Shown here: positions 41,907 to 48,298 of the stretch, piece after piece
Layout: each line of letters starts with the position of its first letter
How positions within the stretch are numbered: the stretch's first letter is position 1
Source: Streptomyces sp. GESEQ-4
GTDB taxonomy: Bacteria > Actinomycetota > Actinomycetes > Streptomycetales > Streptomycetaceae
Assembly (NCBI RefSeq): GCF_017948455.1
Contig: NZ_JAFFSU010000012.1
Span: 186,001 to 250,000, forward strand
Direction of reading: 5' to 3'
DNA length: 64,000 nt
The notes under the pieces: model-generated
Told to the model about the DNA's origin: nothing
What the model saw: the letters and a program-made list of their open reading frames with translations, nothing else
The model's database searches: none
Program-made: the position numbers and the translations under genes

Positions 41907-42860
41907 ATGCCGCACGCCGAGACGCTGGGCACCGAGGCAGCCCTACGGCCCCGCCCGCGCTGGTGGACCGAACTGCCGCTGATTGTGCTGGTGTACGCCT
42001 GCTACTCCGGGGGCCGGCTGCTCGTCGGGGGCGATGTCTCCAAGGCCGTCGACCACGGCCTGGCGATCCTGAAGATCGAGAAGGTCCTCCATCTCAACGC
42101 GGAGCATCCGCTCAACCGCCTGTTCACCCGCGAGCCCTGGATCGGCGTCCCGGCCGACTTCTGGTACGCGTCGCTGCACTACGCCGTCACGCCCGCGATC
42201 CTGATCTGGCTCTTCCGGTCCCGTTCCCGGCACTACCGCGCGGCCCGCACCTGGCTGATGACGTCCACCTTCATCGGCCTGATCGGCTTCACGCTGCTGC
42301 CGACCTGTCCGCCCCGTCTGCTCGACGCGAGCCACGGCTTCGTCGACACGATGGCGCAGTACAGCTCGTACGGCTGGTGGGGCGGCGACGCGAGCGCGCC
42401 GAAGGGGCTGGGCGGCCTGACCAACCAGTACGCGGCGATGCCGAGCCTGCACTGCGGCTGGGCGCTGTGGTGCGGCGTGATCCTCTGGCGGTACGGCGGG
42501 ACGCGTCTGACCAAGGTCGCCGCCGTCGTCTACCCGCTGGTGACGACGATCGTGGTGATGGGCACCGCGAACCACTACTTCCTCGACGCGGTCGCGGGCG
42601 CGGCCGTCATGGGCGCCGGGTTCCTGCTGACGCCGTACGTGTTGCGGGTCGCCGGCCTCGTCCGGACCCGGCTGACGGCGCGGGTCGTGCCCGTCACAGC
42701 GGGCACTGTCGACGCACCCGCCTCAATTGTCAGTGGCGGATGCCAGACTTCCACGGGTGAGCGACTTCCACGGCAGCGCGAGTCCCGGTTCGGATCCGGA
42801 GCCGAGCCGAGTGCCGTCCCCCAGGACGCGGGGGACAGCACTCCGGCACCGGCTCGCTGA
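41907..42860 (+). CDS. PAP2-superfamily membrane phosphatase/phosphotransferase
   Basis: A 317-residue protein with about five or six membrane segments (LPLIVLVYACYSGGRLLVGG; LIGFTLLPTCPPRLLDASHG; VVYPLVTTIVVMGTANHYFL). The phosphatase motifs are PSLHCGWALWCG (His of motif 2) and GTANHYFLDAVAGA (motif 3), as in PAP2_3 inositolphosphotransferase-like proteins. The last 60 residues are polar. It probably acts on a lipid or inositol phosphate at the membrane. Its 3' end overlaps the proposed start of the nuclease gene by about 104 bases in another frame. Confidence 0.82.
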   Translation: MPHAETLGTEAALRPRPRWWTELPLIVLVYACYSGGRLLVGGDVSKAVDHGLAILKIEKVLHLNAEHPLNRLFTREPWIGVPADFWYASLHYAVTPAILIWLFRSRSRHYRAARTWLMTSTFIGLIGFTLLPTCPPRLLDASHGFVDTMAQYSSYGWWGGDASAPKGLGGLTNQYAAMPSLHCGWALWCGVILWRYGGTRLTKVAAVVYPLVTTIVVMGTANHYFLDAVAGAAVMGAGFLLTPYVLRVAGLVRTRLTARVVPVTAGTVDAPASIVSGGCQTSTGERLPRQRESRFGSGAEPSAVPQDAGDSTPAPAR

Positions 42861-43947
42861 GCTGCGCGGCCCCGACGTACCGGCCAAGGCACTGGACGCC
42901 CGTGCCCTGGCCGCACTCGCCGCCAACCCCGGCTGCAAGCGGCGCGCGATCCTCGACGGCGCCGGGGTGGACAAGGCGGCGCTGGCGAGCGCGCTGGGCG
43001 CCCCGTCGGCCTTCGGGCAGTCGCAGTTCGCGTTCGTCCGGGGCAACGCGTTCGAGGCGAAGGTCAAGGCCGACGGCGGCGCGGAGCTGCTGCGGCTGGT
43101 GCACGAGAAGCTGGACCGAGGCGCCGAACCGCCCGCACGCGCGCACGTGCCCGACCTGTCCGCGATCGGCCCCGAGGGGCGGTCCGCGCGTACGGCGCTG
43201 GCGCTGCGCGAGGCCGTGGAAGCCGGTGACTGGACGCTGCTCGACCATCCGATGCTCGCCCTCGACGTCGCCGGGTCGCCCGCCTTCCTGGAGCCGGACG
43301 CGGTGGTCGTGCACCCGGACGGCAGCTGGACGGTCGTGGAGATCAAGTCCTTCCCCATGCTGGACGGCTCGGCGGACCCGGCGAAGGTGGGCGCGGCGGC
43401 CCGCCAGGCCGCGGTGTACGTCCTGGCACTGGAGCAGGTCGCGGCCCGCCTCACCCCCGCCCCGCGCGTACGCCATCGGGTGCTGCTGGTCTGCCCGAAG
43501 GACTTCTCCAACCTGCCCACGGCGTCCGCCGTCGACGTGCGCAAGCAGCGCGCGGTGACCGGCCGCCAGCTGGCCCGGCTCACCCGCATCCAGGACATCG
43601 CCGACGCGCTCCCGGAGACCACCTGCTTCTCCCCCGAGCTGCCCGTCGGCGAGCTGACCGCGGCCGTCGAGTCGGTTCCGGCGACCTACGCGCCCGAGTG
43701 CCTGTCCGCCTGTGAGCTGGCCTTCCACTGCCGTGACCGCTCCCGCGCGGCCGGCGCGGTGACCTCCCTGGGCCGTTCGGTACGGGCCGAGCTGGGCGGG
43801 CTGACGACAGTCGGGGACGTGCTCGCGGCGGCCCGCGGCGAGGCCGGCGACCCGGACGACCCGGCGGTGGCGGCGCTGCGCCGGGCGGCGGAGCTACGGG
43901 CCGAGGCGCTCGACCGGCGCGTAGGGGAGGCCGCCCCGTGTCGCTGA
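42757..43947 (+). CDS. PD-(D/E)XK nuclease with Cas4/AddB-like four-cysteine signature
   Basis: A 396-residue protein. The RecB-like core is EPDAVVVHPDGSWTVVEIKS: Asp181, then Glu195-x-Lys197, preceded by HPMLALDVAG. Four cysteines sit as in iron-staple nucleases (Cas4, AddB, Dna2): Cys60 in NPGCKRR before the core, and Cys315-x3-Cys319-x5-Cys325 (ECLSACELAFHC) after it, so a 4Fe-4S cluster is likely. The start is uncertain: GTG 42757 is used, with GTG 42733 or TTG 42727 possible, none having a good ribosome site. The next gene overlaps it by ten bases. It probably works with the helicase two genes on, in DNA end processing. Confidence 0.8.
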   Translation: MSDFHGSASPGSDPEPSRVPSPRTRGTALRHRLAELRGPDVPAKALDARALAALAANPGCKRRAILDGAGVDKAALASALGAPSAFGQSQFAFVRGNAFEAKVKADGGAELLRLVHEKLDRGAEPPARAHVPDLSAIGPEGRSARTALALREAVEAGDWTLLDHPMLALDVAGSPAFLEPDAVVVHPDGSWTVVEIKSFPMLDGSADPAKVGAAARQAAVYVLALEQVAARLTPAPRVRHRVLLVCPKDFSNLPTASAVDVRKQRAVTGRQLARLTRIQDIADALPETTCFSPELPVGELTAAVESVPATYAPECLSACELAFHCRDRSRAAGAVTSLGRSVRAELGGLTTVGDVLAAARGEAGDPDDPAVAALRRAAELRAEALDRRVGEAAPCR

Positions 43948-45527
43948 TCTCCACCCTCGCCCGTCTCGAAGCCGTCGCCACCGGTCACGCCCAGCCCGCC
44001 GCCACGGTCCGGCACCGGCATCTGTCCGACCACCCCCTGGTCTTCGTGCCGCTCACCACGGCCGGTGAGGCCGGCGCCCCGCTCGGCGCGCTGGTGGGCA
44101 CCGACCGGGACGCGCCGCGCCTGCTGGTCGTACCGCAGCCACGCGACCGCGACCTGAGGTTCGCGTTCCTGGCGGAGCTGGCGGATGTCGTGCTGCCGTA
44201 TGTCGACGGGTACGCCGAGGCGGTCGAGGCCGCCGAGCGCTCCGAGACGGACCCCGAGACCGGCAAGCGGGTCAAGGTCGAGGTCGAACTGTGCGCGGAC
44301 GCCCCGCAGTTGATCGTCCCGAGCCGCGCGGGCGTCGATTTCGTACGACTGCTCGGACGCTCCATGCGCTTTCGGCGCACGGCGGAGCAGGACCCGGAGA
44401 CCCCGTATCCGGCGCCGCCCCGGGTTCCGCTGCTCGGCCGGTGGCTGACCCACTTCGGGGAGCGGGCCCGCGTGCCCGGCTCCTCGCTGCTGCTGGCCAT
44501 GACGGACGTGCTGGCCCGGCACTGGGAGACCGGCCAGTCCAGCCTCGAGGACCAGCACCTCGGCGCGCTGCTCGCGTGGATCGACCCCCCGGAGGGCGAG
44601 CAGGGAGCCGAGGCCGCCCTGCGGGCCGAGCTGGCGCGGGACCGGCAGGGCCAGCTGCTGTGCCCGCCCGCCGGTCCGGCCACCGACCCGGCGTTCGACA
44701 ACAGGCTGCTCGCGCCCGCGATCGAGCGCTACGACCGTGCGCGCACCGCCCTCGCCGCCGCCGAGGACGGCCTGCAGGCGGACGACCGGCTCGGTGAACT
44801 CACCGCCGCCGAGCGGGAGATCCGCGATCTTGTGCTGAGCCGTACGCTGCCCACCTGGCAGAAGGTCTGGCAGGGCCTCGACCTGCTGCGCGCCCTGCCC
44901 ACCGGCGCGCACATCGAGGAGCGGTGGACGCGCGACCGCTGGTCCTTCACCGCCCACCGCGACCGGATCGTGGCCGGCGAGCCCCCGCAGCCGCGCCGCG
45001 ACGACGCGGTCACCGCGGCCAACAAGCTCGCCGCGCGCGAGCGGGAGCAGGCCCGTCTGGAGGCCCAGGAGGCGCTCGACGACCCGCTGGTGATGGCCGG
45101 GCGGCGGCTGTCCGGAGAGGCGTTCGCGGGCGAGGTCACGGATGTCGTCATGGCGTACAGCGAGAGCAAGCGCCCCAGCCCGCGCCCGCTGATCACGGTC
45201 CGCACCGGCGACCGGCCGCATCTCGGTGAGCGGGTCAGGGTGTACCGGTCGCTGGGCGGGAAGCCGCAGGCGGCGGAGTTCGTCGAGCGCGCCGGGGACG
45301 ACCTGATCGTGCTGCGGATCGTCGACAAGATGGGCCGCGGCAAGGTGCCGGAGGAAGGTTCGGTGCCGGACAAGGGCGACGCGGTCTGCTTCACGCTCTT
45401 CGAGCACGAACAGCGGGGCGGCGCCAAGCTGCCCGATCCCGAGCAGACCCCGTGGACCCATGGCGGGCCGCCCGGCGAGGCGGTCCTCCCCGAGGCTGAC
45501 CCGATGACCGCGGAGGACGTGCTGTGA
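43938..45527 (+). CDS. unrecognised 529-residue protein between the nuclease and helicase genes
   Basis: No known family is recognised. It is cytoplasmic and acidic, with a mixed N-terminal half (STLARLEAVATGHAQPAATV, FAFLAELADVVLPYVDGYAE), a long charged helical region near residues 345-385 (ANKLAAREREQARLEAQEAL), and a beta-rich C-terminal part of about 110 residues (PLITVRTGDRPHLGERVRVY, EFVERAGDDLIVLRIVDKMG) that could be a small barrel. GTG 43938 follows GGGGAGG at ideal spacing. It overlaps both neighbours, so it is probably a subunit of the same complex. A role as the DNA-binding or 1B-barrel part of a split Dna2-like machine is speculation. Confidence 0.75.
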   Translation: MSLISTLARLEAVATGHAQPAATVRHRHLSDHPLVFVPLTTAGEAGAPLGALVGTDRDAPRLLVVPQPRDRDLRFAFLAELADVVLPYVDGYAEAVEAAERSETDPETGKRVKVEVELCADAPQLIVPSRAGVDFVRLLGRSMRFRRTAEQDPETPYPAPPRVPLLGRWLTHFGERARVPGSSLLLAMTDVLARHWETGQSSLEDQHLGALLAWIDPPEGEQGAEAALRAELARDRQGQLLCPPAGPATDPAFDNRLLAPAIERYDRARTALAAAEDGLQADDRLGELTAAEREIRDLVLSRTLPTWQKVWQGLDLLRALPTGAHIEERWTRDRWSFTAHRDRIVAGEPPQPRRDDAVTAANKLAAREREQARLEAQEALDDPLVMAGRRLSGEAFAGEVTDVVMAYSESKRPSPRPLITVRTGDRPHLGERVRVYRSLGGKPQAAEFVERAGDDLIVLRIVDKMGRGKVPEEGSVPDKGDAVCFTLFEHEQRGGAKLPDPEQTPWTHGGPPGEAVLPEADPMTAEDVL

Positions 45528-46864
45528 CGGCCCAGGCCGCTTTCGACCCGGGTGCGGAGGCCGCCCGCGCGACCGACGCGATCCTCGCCGACACCCTGCA
45601 CGGCACCCATCGGGGCGTCGTCGTCGACTCCCCGCCCGGTGCCGGCAAGTCCACGCTCGTCGTCCGTGCGGCGCTGGAACTGGCCGATGCCGGGCGCCCG
45701 CTGATGGTCATCGCGCAGACGAACGCCCAGGTCGACGACCTGGTGCTGAGACTCGCCGAGAAGAACCCCGAGCTGCCGGTCGGCCGGCTGCACAGCAGCG
45801 ACACCGACCCGTACGACAAGGCGCTGGACGATCTGCCGCAGGTACGGAAGTCCGCGAAGGCCGGCGAGCTGACCGGCCTCCCGGTCGTGGTCTCGACGGC
45901 CGCCAAGTGGGCGCACGTCAAGGTCGACGAACCGTGGCGGCACGCGATCGTCGACGAGGCGTACCAGATGCGCTCGGACGCGCTGCTCGCCGTGGCCGGG
46001 CTGTTCGAGCGGGCGCTGTTCGTGGGCGACCCGGGGCAGCTGGACCCGTTCTCGATCGTGGGCAGCGAGCAGTGGGCGGGCCTGTCGTACGACCCGTCCG
46101 GCTCCGCCGTGACCACCCTGCTCGCCCACAACCCCGAGCTGCCGCAGCACCGCCTCCCGGTGTCCTGGCGGCTCCCGGCGTCCGCGGCGCCCCTGGTGTC
46201 GGACGCCTTCTACCCGTACACACCGTTCCGCAGCGGCACGGACCACGGCGACCGGCGGCTGACCTTCGCGGTCCCCTCGGACGGCTCCGGCCCCGACCGG
46301 GTGATCGACGAGGCGGCCGCGTCGGGCTGGGGCCTGCTGGAGCTGCCCGCCCGGCGCACCCCGCGCACCGATCCGGAGGCGGTACGGGCCGTCGCGACGG
46401 TCGTACGACGACTGCTGGACCGGGGCGGTGCGGCCACGTCGGAGCGGTCGGACGGCCCGGCGCCCCTGACCGCCGACCGGATCGCGGTCGGCACGGCACA
46501 CCGGGACCAGGCGGCGGCGGTACGGGCAGCACTCGGCGATCTGGGCGTCGCCGACGTCACGGTCGACACCGCGAACCGACTCCAGGGCCGCGAGTACGAC
46601 GTCACGGTGATCCTTCACCCCCTGTCAGGCCGCCCCGACGCGACCGCCTTCCACCTGGAGACCGGACGACTCTGCGTCCTCACCTCCCGCCACCGGCACG
46701 CCTGCATCGTGGTCTGCCGGGCCGGGGTGAGCGACCTGCTGGACGAATATCCGTCGACCGAGCCGGTACAACTGGGGACGGTCGTGAAGTTCCCTGACGG
46801 CTGGGAGGCGAACCACGCGGTGCTGGCGCACCTGGCCGAGCGGCGGGTGGCGTGGCGGCCGTGA
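45524..46864 (+). CDS. SF1 helicase, Upf1/Dna2-like
   Basis: A 446-residue helicase with all main motifs: Walker A SPPGAGKSTLVVRA (Lys42), Ia VIAQTNAQVDDLV, II IVDEAYQMRSD (Asp144-Glu145), III LFVGDPGQLDPF, IV QHRLPVSWRLP, V DTANRLQGREYDVTV, VI LCVLTSRHRHACIV. The spacing between motifs I and II is short, so the 1B insertion of larger Upf1-like helicases is reduced. GTG 45524 overlaps the upstream stop as GTGA, with GGAGGA before it. With the nuclease two genes back this forms a split nuclease-helicase set. Confidence 0.9.
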   Translation: MTAQAAFDPGAEAARATDAILADTLHGTHRGVVVDSPPGAGKSTLVVRAALELADAGRPLMVIAQTNAQVDDLVLRLAEKNPELPVGRLHSSDTDPYDKALDDLPQVRKSAKAGELTGLPVVVSTAAKWAHVKVDEPWRHAIVDEAYQMRSDALLAVAGLFERALFVGDPGQLDPFSIVGSEQWAGLSYDPSGSAVTTLLAHNPELPQHRLPVSWRLPASAAPLVSDAFYPYTPFRSGTDHGDRRLTFAVPSDGSGPDRVIDEAAASGWGLLELPARRTPRTDPEAVRAVATVVRRLLDRGGAATSERSDGPAPLTADRIAVGTAHRDQAAAVRAALGDLGVADVTVDTANRLQGREYDVTVILHPLSGRPDATAFHLETGRLCVLTSRHRHACIVVCRAGVSDLLDEYPSTEPVQLGTVVKFPDGWEANHAVLAHLAERRVAWRP

Positions 46865-47069
46865 CCGGCTCCCGGGCAGCGCACCAGCAAGCGCCGCAGA
46901 CGACGCCGCCCACCGCCGGACGGAGTCCGGCACGCCGCCGGAGGCGGCCAACGAATACAGCGCCTGTGCCGGTGCCATGTGCCGGGGGCCCACTTGCGGA
47001 GGCGCGAGACAATGGACGGTGGCCCGCTCCACAGGCCGGTCGTCCATGACGTACGAGGAGGAGACAGAC

Positions 47070-47441
47070 ATGGCGGAGCCCACGCCGCGTCGGAACGAAC
47101 CGCGGCTACGCCCCGCGCCACTGCTCTTCGAGCCCGCGCAGGTGGCGGACGATCCGGAGCACTTCTTCGATCTGGAGTCGATCGAGGATCCGCGCGCGTT
47201 GCTGGCGCGGGCGACAGAGCTGACGCAGGCGTTTCGGGCGGCTACGGACCGTGCGGTGGAGTTTCAGGCGATCGCGGCCGCGCAGTTGGCCGACCCTCGG
47301 CGGTTCGATCGGCTGACGGCGGCGGATATCGCTGAGCGGGCCGAGTGGACCGAGGACTACGCGAAGAAGATGGTCGAGTTCGGGCGGGATCTCTTGCGGG
47401 GGGTTGCCGGGGACGGGCGAGGTACTGCGGATCCGGTGTGA
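47070..47441 (+). CDS. small hypothetical protein with possible helix-turn-helix
   Basis: A 123-residue protein. ATG 47070 is preceded by GAGGAGGAG (47055-47063), an excellent ribosome site. The N-terminus is Pro/Arg-rich; the centre (PRALLARATELTQAFRAATD) is helical; LTAADIAERAEWTEDYAKKM near the end could be a helix-turn-helix. It follows the helicase gene by 205 bp, so it is probably a separate unit. Family not recognised. Confidence 0.65.
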   Translation: MAEPTPRRNEPRLRPAPLLFEPAQVADDPEHFFDLESIEDPRALLARATELTQAFRAATDRAVEFQAIAAAQLADPRRFDRLTAADIAERAEWTEDYAKKMVEFGRDLLRGVAGDGRGTADPV

Positions 47442-47635
47442 GTGACGTGAACGCCGGCTGGTGCGGGCCGGGGGTGGGTCGCGCGGCCCGGCGCTGACGG
47501 GTGCCGCCTACGCCCACCCGCGTCACCCCTGCCGGCATATGCCAGGCGGGCAAGATACTCCCTCCCGTTGCTCTCTGTCCCCGTTTCCGGCAACCCTCCG
47601 GGACTGGCTGCTCACCGGCGGTAGATCTGGACGGT

Positions 47636-48226
47636 ATGAGCAGCAGCACCCGCAATGAGACGTTGTCCGATCGATTCGACGTATCCGGTGTCACCGCGGA
47701 CGGTGCGGCGTGGCTGGCGTCGGCCGGTGTGTACCCGCGGAGCGCTCTCGCACTGTGGGAGGAGCGGCCGGACGCGCCGGTCGTGCTGCCGTGCGGTACC
47801 GCCTTCGATGTCGTGAGCGTGCCCGCGGTCTTCGGGCGGCAGATGCTGGACCGGTTGTGGGACGAGGGACCGGGGTCCGGGCCGGTCGCGGTGTTCCGGG
47901 GGCGGATGCTGCTGTTCGCCGGGCCGGGAACGGCACACCGGCTGCCGTCGCTGCTGGACTGGGAGGAGTGGGCCGGCCGTACCGGCGGAATCCCGCCACT
48001 GCTCTGCCACGGCCATGGCGACGCCGTAACCCTCCCCGCACCCCTCGGCGCGGTCGGCCTCCACTCCCGCTGGCTCGTCGCCCCCGACACCCGTCACCCC
48101 TGGCTGCCGGGGCCGGAAATCCTGCTGTGGGCGGCCGTGCGGGCGGCCCGGACCACCGTACGGATATCGATTTTTCCTCCCGCCGATCAGGGTGCTAAGG
48201 TCTACGACGTCAGCAGGCGCCGCTAG
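47636..48226 (+). CDS. PrimPol-N-like hypothetical protein whose 3' end overlaps tRNA-Lys
   Basis: A 196-residue protein. ADGAAWLASAGVYPRSALAL, PCGTAFDVVSVPAVFGRQML and RHPWLPGPEILLWAAVRAAR resemble Streptomyces proteins annotated as bifunctional primase/polymerase N-terminal-like, although a full catalytic triad is not evident. The ATG at 47636 is used; the frame is open further upstream. The last ten bases, including the stop TAG (48224-48226), lie inside the tRNA-Lys gene, so the tail DVSRRR is encoded by the tRNA acceptor stem. Confidence 0.7.
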   Translation: MSSSTRNETLSDRFDVSGVTADGAAWLASAGVYPRSALALWEERPDAPVVLPCGTAFDVVSVPAVFGRQMLDRLWDEGPGSGPVAVFRGRMLLFAGPGTAHRLPSLLDWEEWAGRTGGIPPLLCHGHGDAVTLPAPLGAVGLHSRWLVAPDTRHPWLPGPEILLWAAVRAARTTVRISIFPPADQGAKVYDVSRRR

Positions 48227-48290
48227 CTCAGTTGGTTAGAGCAGCTGACTCTTAATCAGCGGGTCCGGGGTTCGAGTCCCTGGCGGCGCA
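48217..48290 (+). tRNA. tRNA-Lys (CTT)
   Basis: Acceptor GCGCCGC (48217-48223) pairs with GCGGCGC (48283-48289); the D arm starts at GCTC, anticodon stem GCTGA/TCAGC holds loop CTCTTAA with anticodon CTT (48251-48253), and the T loop is TTCGAGT. Discriminator A at 48290; CCA is not encoded. Confidence 0.97.
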
Positions 48291-48298
48291 CCGACCGG

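Follow-up and report, generated by a model that had tools for sequence, protein, structure and literature searches.

A three-gene nuclease-helicase operon of Streptomyces with the predicted make-up of a Dna2-like machine dissected into subunits

What kind of enzyme is encoded by three overlapping genes of Streptomyces sp. GESEQ-4, which specify a nuclease, a protein not recognised by its sequence and a helicase? The genes, here called NUC, MID and HEL, lie on the forward strand at 42757-46864 of the window, the 64,000-nucleotide stretch analysed (contig NZ_JAFFSU010000012.1, positions 186,001 to 250,000; our genome G000, contig C4, 9.24 Mb). An initial annotation had described them as looking like a dissected Dna2/AddAB-type machine for repair or defence. 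We consider it likely that the trio forms one composite ATP-dependent helicase-nuclease, a Dna2- or Bad-like machine taken apart into subunits, with a housekeeping core copy and accessory copies in defence islands. A dissected end-processing machine of this type appears to be the most economical reading of the genes and predicted folds. The open reading frames of the window bear out the three overlapping genes: NUC and MID share 10 nt and MID and HEL 4 nt, with the same overlaps in nearly all Streptomyces core loci. Compared with five orthologues, the window genes have ratios of non-synonymous to synonymous substitution rates (dN/dS) of 0.09-0.27, which indicate purifying selection, and the pattern is therefore not a product of chance.

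The nuclease subunit NUC (42757..43947, + strand, 396 aa) contains all the residues that the initial annotation had singled out, namely the catalytic Asp181 and Glu195-x-Lys197 (43297..43347, +) and, bracketing the nuclease core, Cys60 (42934..42936, +) and Cys315, Cys319 and Cys325 (43699..43731, +), arranged as C...C-x3-C-x5-C. As that annotation requires, the four cysteines are invariant in orthologues, in 46/46 aligned complete near relatives and in 79/79 further named loci. The catalytic residues are likewise retained in the near relatives, save for six paralogues that all belong to one clade (class B, below), and in the further loci (Glu195 and Lys197 in 79/79, Asp181 in 78/79). The AlphaFold2 model of NUC (predicted local distance difference test score, pLDDT, 86.6) is best matched by Cas4 (7mi4; Z 10.7, 201 residues, 4.9 Å), followed by RecE, Exo5, AddAB, AdnAB and Dna2, whose nuclease domain scores Z 7.0. 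Model matches and conserved residues point to a PD-(D/E)XK fold with D, E-x-K and Q/Y motifs; NUC is predicted to fold like the nucleases of Cas4, AddB and Dna2, as had been supposed, and its cysteines probably hold an iron-sulphur (Fe-S) cluster, the 'iron staple' of such enzymes. Matches of the NUC profile to designed proteins in the PDB were rejected as compositional.

HEL (45524..46864, +, 446 aa) appears to be a minimal Upf1-like helicase of superfamily 1 (SF1), consisting of the RecA domains 1A and 2A. The motor domains, complete with Walker A and B, are recognized by Pfam as AAA_11 (1.8e-11) and AAA_12 (7e-8), and the nearest solved relatives in the PDB are IGHMBP2 (SMUBP-2; 5e-8) and Dna2 (6e-6), along with Upf1, in agreement with the family first assigned. 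The UvrD family, which would denote an SF1A motor, is not among the Pfam matches of HEL, and PADLOC returns weak generic helicase matches only. Walker A (PPGAGKST, residues 37-44; 45632..45655, +), nearly invariant in 115 sequences, leaves no room ahead of it for a 1B domain. As HEL starts just before this motif and its alignment begins at residue 208 of IGHMBP2 and 648 of Dna2, the segment that it lacks would be the one carried by MID. Two cysteines of HEL, Cys384 and Cys394 (46673-46705), flank helicase motif VI and are nearly invariant among the 115 sequences.

The 529-residue MID (43938..45527, +) had been called unrecognised, which holds for its sequence: we found no PDB relatives of its profile, and a Pfam match to CtaG (E 0.033, below cut-off) was rejected as compositional. 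Its AlphaFold2 model (pLDDT 86.8), compared by VIA-align, does give it an identity, that of a putative scaffold with an RNase H-like domain and a predicted stalk plus 1B barrel. Residues 31-387 (44028..45098, +) match the DnaQ-type 3'-5' exonuclease domain of B-family polymerases (Z ~9, 170-200 residues, 3.5-4.9 Å) in some 40 entries, which belong to a single family and are not independent. The acids of motif I, positioned by the structural offset (MID 31 = polymerase 135), fall on Val37 and Leu39, and these positions hold V/I/L and L/M in 126/126 sequences. Glu204-Asp205, nearly invariant in the same sequences, might represent motif III. The replacement of the motif-I acids suggests that the RNase H-like domain is non-catalytic. 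Residues 385-492 (45090..45413, +) match the stalk and 1B barrel that precede domain 1A in Upf1-like helicases (IGHMBP2 4b3f residues 36-143, Z 9.2, 2.6 Å over 88 residues; Senataxin 8ftm, Z 8.5). MID may in this way supply the machine with both its RNase H-like and its 1B-barrel part.

The three genes occur together. Among 198 actinomycete genomes, MID occurs in 29, full-length HEL in the identical 29 and NUC in 30, one NUC match (E 5e-4, 72 residues, in a genome without MID) being taken as spurious; any one gene thus predicts all three (29/29). A contig scan yielded 80 named loci, all from actinomycetes (Nocardia, Actinomadura, Micromonospora, Streptosporangium, Nonomuraea, Frankia and others), of which 70 hold all three genes, adjacent within 400 nt in 66; the genes are mostly not apart, a point on which the first interpretation could have foundered. 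In ten Micromonospora-like loci HEL is not within the fetched ~19 kb around NUC-MID, and in genomes G095 and G197 it lies ~37-50 kb away. Four loci of other actinomycetes (L181, L182, L189, L200) have a gap of 1-2.4 kb between MID and HEL. MID is present in 187/199 Streptomyces genomes. Ten of the 12 without a match were re-searched for HEL and for TIGR03491, the single-chain family discussed below: two (G302, G293) still have HEL, whole or in part, G345 has a marginal 52-residue match, the other seven, well-assembled G233 and G374 included, also lack HEL, and TIGR03491 exceeds its cut-off in 0/10. Loss of the trio in Streptomyces is rare but tolerated. The 16 core copies examined occupy a single syntenic locus with the order response regulator, TPR, His-phosphatase, PAP2, trio, small gene, PrimPol-N and GGDEF/EAL, with some losses; in the window a tRNA-Lys follows, and no defence genes were identified among the neighbours of its trio.

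Other actinomycetes encode proteins of ~1150 aa above the TIGR03491 (TM0106) cut-off, in which a RecB-like nuclease with clustered cysteines, an RNase_H_2 domain and a Upf1-like helicase succeed one another in the order NUC-MID-HEL. Such a protein is found in 1/29 genomes with the trio versus 59/198 overall (Fisher p=3e-4, without phylogenetic correction). NUC and MID have no NCBIfam match and hence do not reach the family cut-off. The trio seems to resemble TM0106 proteins by architecture, HEL alone being homologous by sequence.

Beyond the core locus, a fourth gene, CC (~280 aa, with only weak UVR and FliJ coiled-coil matches), is detected in 18/199 Streptomyces genomes, 17 of which carry a complete CC-NUC-MID-HEL operon, and in most loci of other families (65/80 named loci) it likewise precedes NUC. 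The window genome has no CC match anywhere, and the idea that CC had been relocated within it was dropped. In a concatenated tree, core (16), class A (13) and class B (6) copies form three supported clades that are jointly monophyletic. We read the core copy as widespread and mostly vertical and the accessory copies as repeatedly recruited. 'Repair or defence', as the alternative had been put, looks like both: accessory copies sit beside Wadjet and pPIWI-RE genes in defence islands, and the core locus lies among ordinary genes.

In class A, two of whose 13 copies are on plasmids, a divergent SbcD gene adjoins CC in 13/13, usually with SbcC (fragmentary in L087 and L112), and the host genomes tested hold a separate SbcD elsewhere. 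Wadjet follows directly downstream of HEL in six class A loci, of which three have type I and three type II. Several class A copies are near replicon ends, at 4.7 kb (G285), at 24 kb from both ends (G319, G245) and at ~12 kb on a linear plasmid (L086), and that of G300 is 0.5 Mb away. Since Wadjet is enriched in Streptomyces arms (PMC10482375), this position by itself may follow from that. The loci L109, L117, L118 and L086 have SbcCD with CC-NUC-MID-HEL within 5-25 kb of linear replicon ends, at both ends in two species. All six class B copies divergently adjoin a nuclease gene and then a DinG gene, and in the three loci with sufficient extension (L223, L224, L225) a gene of ~960 aa comes next, which in the two tested is pPIWI_RE; this is the three-gene pPIWI-RE island of PMC3702460. 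Further neighbours are HmaA/HmaB at one class B locus and a PD-Lambda-1 gene at another. Class B NUC (L054, L119-L123) carries H164R and K197R plus either E195L/E100H or D181Q, yet keeps Cys60, Cys315, Cys319 and Cys325 and has a dN/dS of 0.15-0.28, as would be expected if NUC were also a structural subunit. In the adjoining island nuclease, judged by the alignment, D...E-x-K and the canonical C-x2-C-x5-C are intact.

In the model that we propose, the two motor domains come from HEL, onto which MID docks by its C-terminal part, as the absent stalk and 1B barrel, while MID grips NUC through its degenerate RNase H-like domain. The four cysteines of NUC, probably with an Fe-S cluster, would staple the PD-(D/E)XK domain shut around single-stranded DNA, and the complex would load at a free DNA end or flap, translocate and cut the threaded strand. 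Movement would be 5'-to-3' by analogy with Upf1/Dna2-type motors, among them Bad, whose helicase runs 5'-to-3' and whose Fe-S nuclease has a preference for 5' overhangs (PMC7430649). As AdnAB is reported to be the main helicase-nuclease of Streptomyces (PMC5869714), the core copy would presumably be accessory to it in general end or flap processing. Accessory copies with CC might process or degrade DNA acted on by Wadjet, SbcCD or pPIWI-RE. Wadjet cleaves circular plasmids but leaves linear DNA intact (PMC10586767), and SbcCD plus the trio could, as a hypothesis, process the linear product of a neighbouring Wadjet. Conceivable, if slightly short of probable, is a bolder version: a new modular DNA-end-processing complex whose accessory forms are the degradation arm of composite immune systems. 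Class A with SbcCD, a bacterial Mre11-Rad50 and Dna2-like pair, would then destroy DNA linearised by either Wadjet type, and in class B the trio's own nuclease would be inactive, its place taken by the iron-staple nuclease of the Argonaute-like pPIWI-RE island, leaving NUC as a structural adaptor.

Several findings weigh against a dissected Dna2-like complex. The complex, its Fe-S cluster and its activity are predictions from genes and models. The spacing of the NUC cysteines, C-x3-C-x5-C in the window and in conserved columns of the relatives, is not the canonical C-x2-C-x5-C. Foldseek alone found nothing under E 0.003 for MID, and unrelated FNR-type barrels score Z 8.0-8.4 against the MID barrel, within about 1 of IGHMBP2; this match is therefore not decisive by itself, and the 1B assignment is favoured because the same segment is absent from HEL. 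In hhalign comparisons with TM0106, HEL reaches 99.4% probability, NUC 4% and MID 0.1%, so that for NUC and MID the likeness is one of architecture. When Streptomyces is left out, the mutual exclusion of trio and TM0106 is weaker (p=0.06), and the genomes are not independent samples. The system is also dispensable, since MID and HEL are absent, with no TM0106 protein in their place, from at least five near-complete assemblies of Streptomyces.

HEL is, moreover, unlinked from NUC-MID in some genomes. This distance of tens of kilobases in G095 and G197, together with the 10/80 named loci that have no HEL nearby, is what one would expect if the three proteins acted separately and merely shared an operon. 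We regard this as the least probable explanation, given that co-occurrence in the survey is perfect with the unlinked cases included, that neither HEL nor MID alone holds a complete Upf1-like core, and that the reading frames overlap. An enzyme directed at RNA or R-loops seems only marginally less improbable. Upf1/Senataxin-like motors frequently have RNA or hybrids as substrates, the MID barrel and HEL do resemble IGHMBP2 and Senataxin, and class B adjoins pPIWI-RE, proposed to act with DinG on RNA-DNA hybrids (PMC3702460). However, the iron-staple PD-(D/E)XK domain is a DNA-nuclease type in characterised relatives, and SbcCD and Wadjet, the class A partners, work on DNA. Unlikely as well, though somewhat less so, is a pure anti-phage or anti-plasmid system of which the core Streptomyces copy is a fixed locus. 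The accessory neighbours (Wadjet I/II, pPIWI-RE, Hma and PD-Lambda-1 genes) and the 12 sampled Streptomyces without a MID match agree with it. A frequency of 187/199 is untypical of defence genes, however, and the core copies form one clade in one syntenic neighbourhood of ordinary genes, none identified as a defence gene. The composite helicase-nuclease with core and accessory versions remains our preferred interpretation.

The sole doubtful point of the gene calls is the start of NUC, which overlaps the upstream PAP2 gene (41907-42860). Inspection of the sequence revealed no clear ribosome-binding site for 42757, and the first ~20 residues have low confidence in the model; translation may instead begin at the GTG at 42811. 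A 17-bp imperfect tandem repeat (42746-42781) spans the annotated start inside the PAP2 end. Shortly 3' of the operon is a double hairpin (46917..46948, +), a probable terminator or leader element (one match in a DNA search, zero expected). This 31-bp element 3' of HEL (46864-46948) is identical in two other Streptomyces (L052, 11230-11740; L053, 6320-6845), in both of which it forms tandem repeats, with units of 169 and 269 bp, that also include the final ~70 bp of the helicase gene. Farther 3' (46977-48292) lie an unrecognised small gene, one with a PrimPol-N domain and the tRNA-Lys; most core loci have the first two in synteny, and both are missing near the L052 trio.

If correct, our interpretation would add to Streptomyces an undescribed, near-universal helicase-nuclease; because chromosomes in this genus are linear, the processing of their ends is a question of current interest. 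A Dna2-like enzyme would be seen here in the form of separate subunits. The interpretation would also physically link end resection by SbcCD and a Dna2-like motor to Wadjet and pPIWI-RE islands, suggesting the fate of DNA after cutting. The dead-nuclease class B clade would be a natural experiment in which what the Fe-S staple does structurally is set apart from catalysis.

How does the trio relate to described systems? Neither NUC nor MID has a meaningful match in Pfam, NCBIfam, PADLOC or PHROGs, NUC has none in the phage collection, and no named system of this make-up was found in the libraries searched or the open-access literature (subscription literature lay outside the scope). The likeness to Cas4 comprises the top structural match of NUC and the four-cysteine arrangement, but no cas genes were identified beside the trio and NUC is coupled to helicase genes. 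AddAB and AdnAB share the nuclease fold and a multi-subunit make-up; they have UvrD-like motors, however, and in Streptomyces the trio is additional to AdnAB. Fold comparison supports the 'Dna2-type' half of the original description, and 'AddAB-type' fits less well, HEL having a Upf1-like (AAA_11/AAA_12) and not a UvrD-like motor. Bad of Geobacillus stearothermophilus (PMC7430649) and eukaryotic Dna2 combine an iron-staple RecB-family nuclease with an SF1B helicase, and both NUC and HEL match Dna2. In contrast to the three reading frames here, they are single polypeptides; their cysteine spacing is x2 rather than the x3 of NUC, and the RNase H-like domain of MID is an extra. TM0106 proteins, carried by other actinomycetes in place of the trio, have its gene or domain order and clustered cysteines, but are fused into one chain in which motif I of the RNase H domain (FFDFEG) looks intact.

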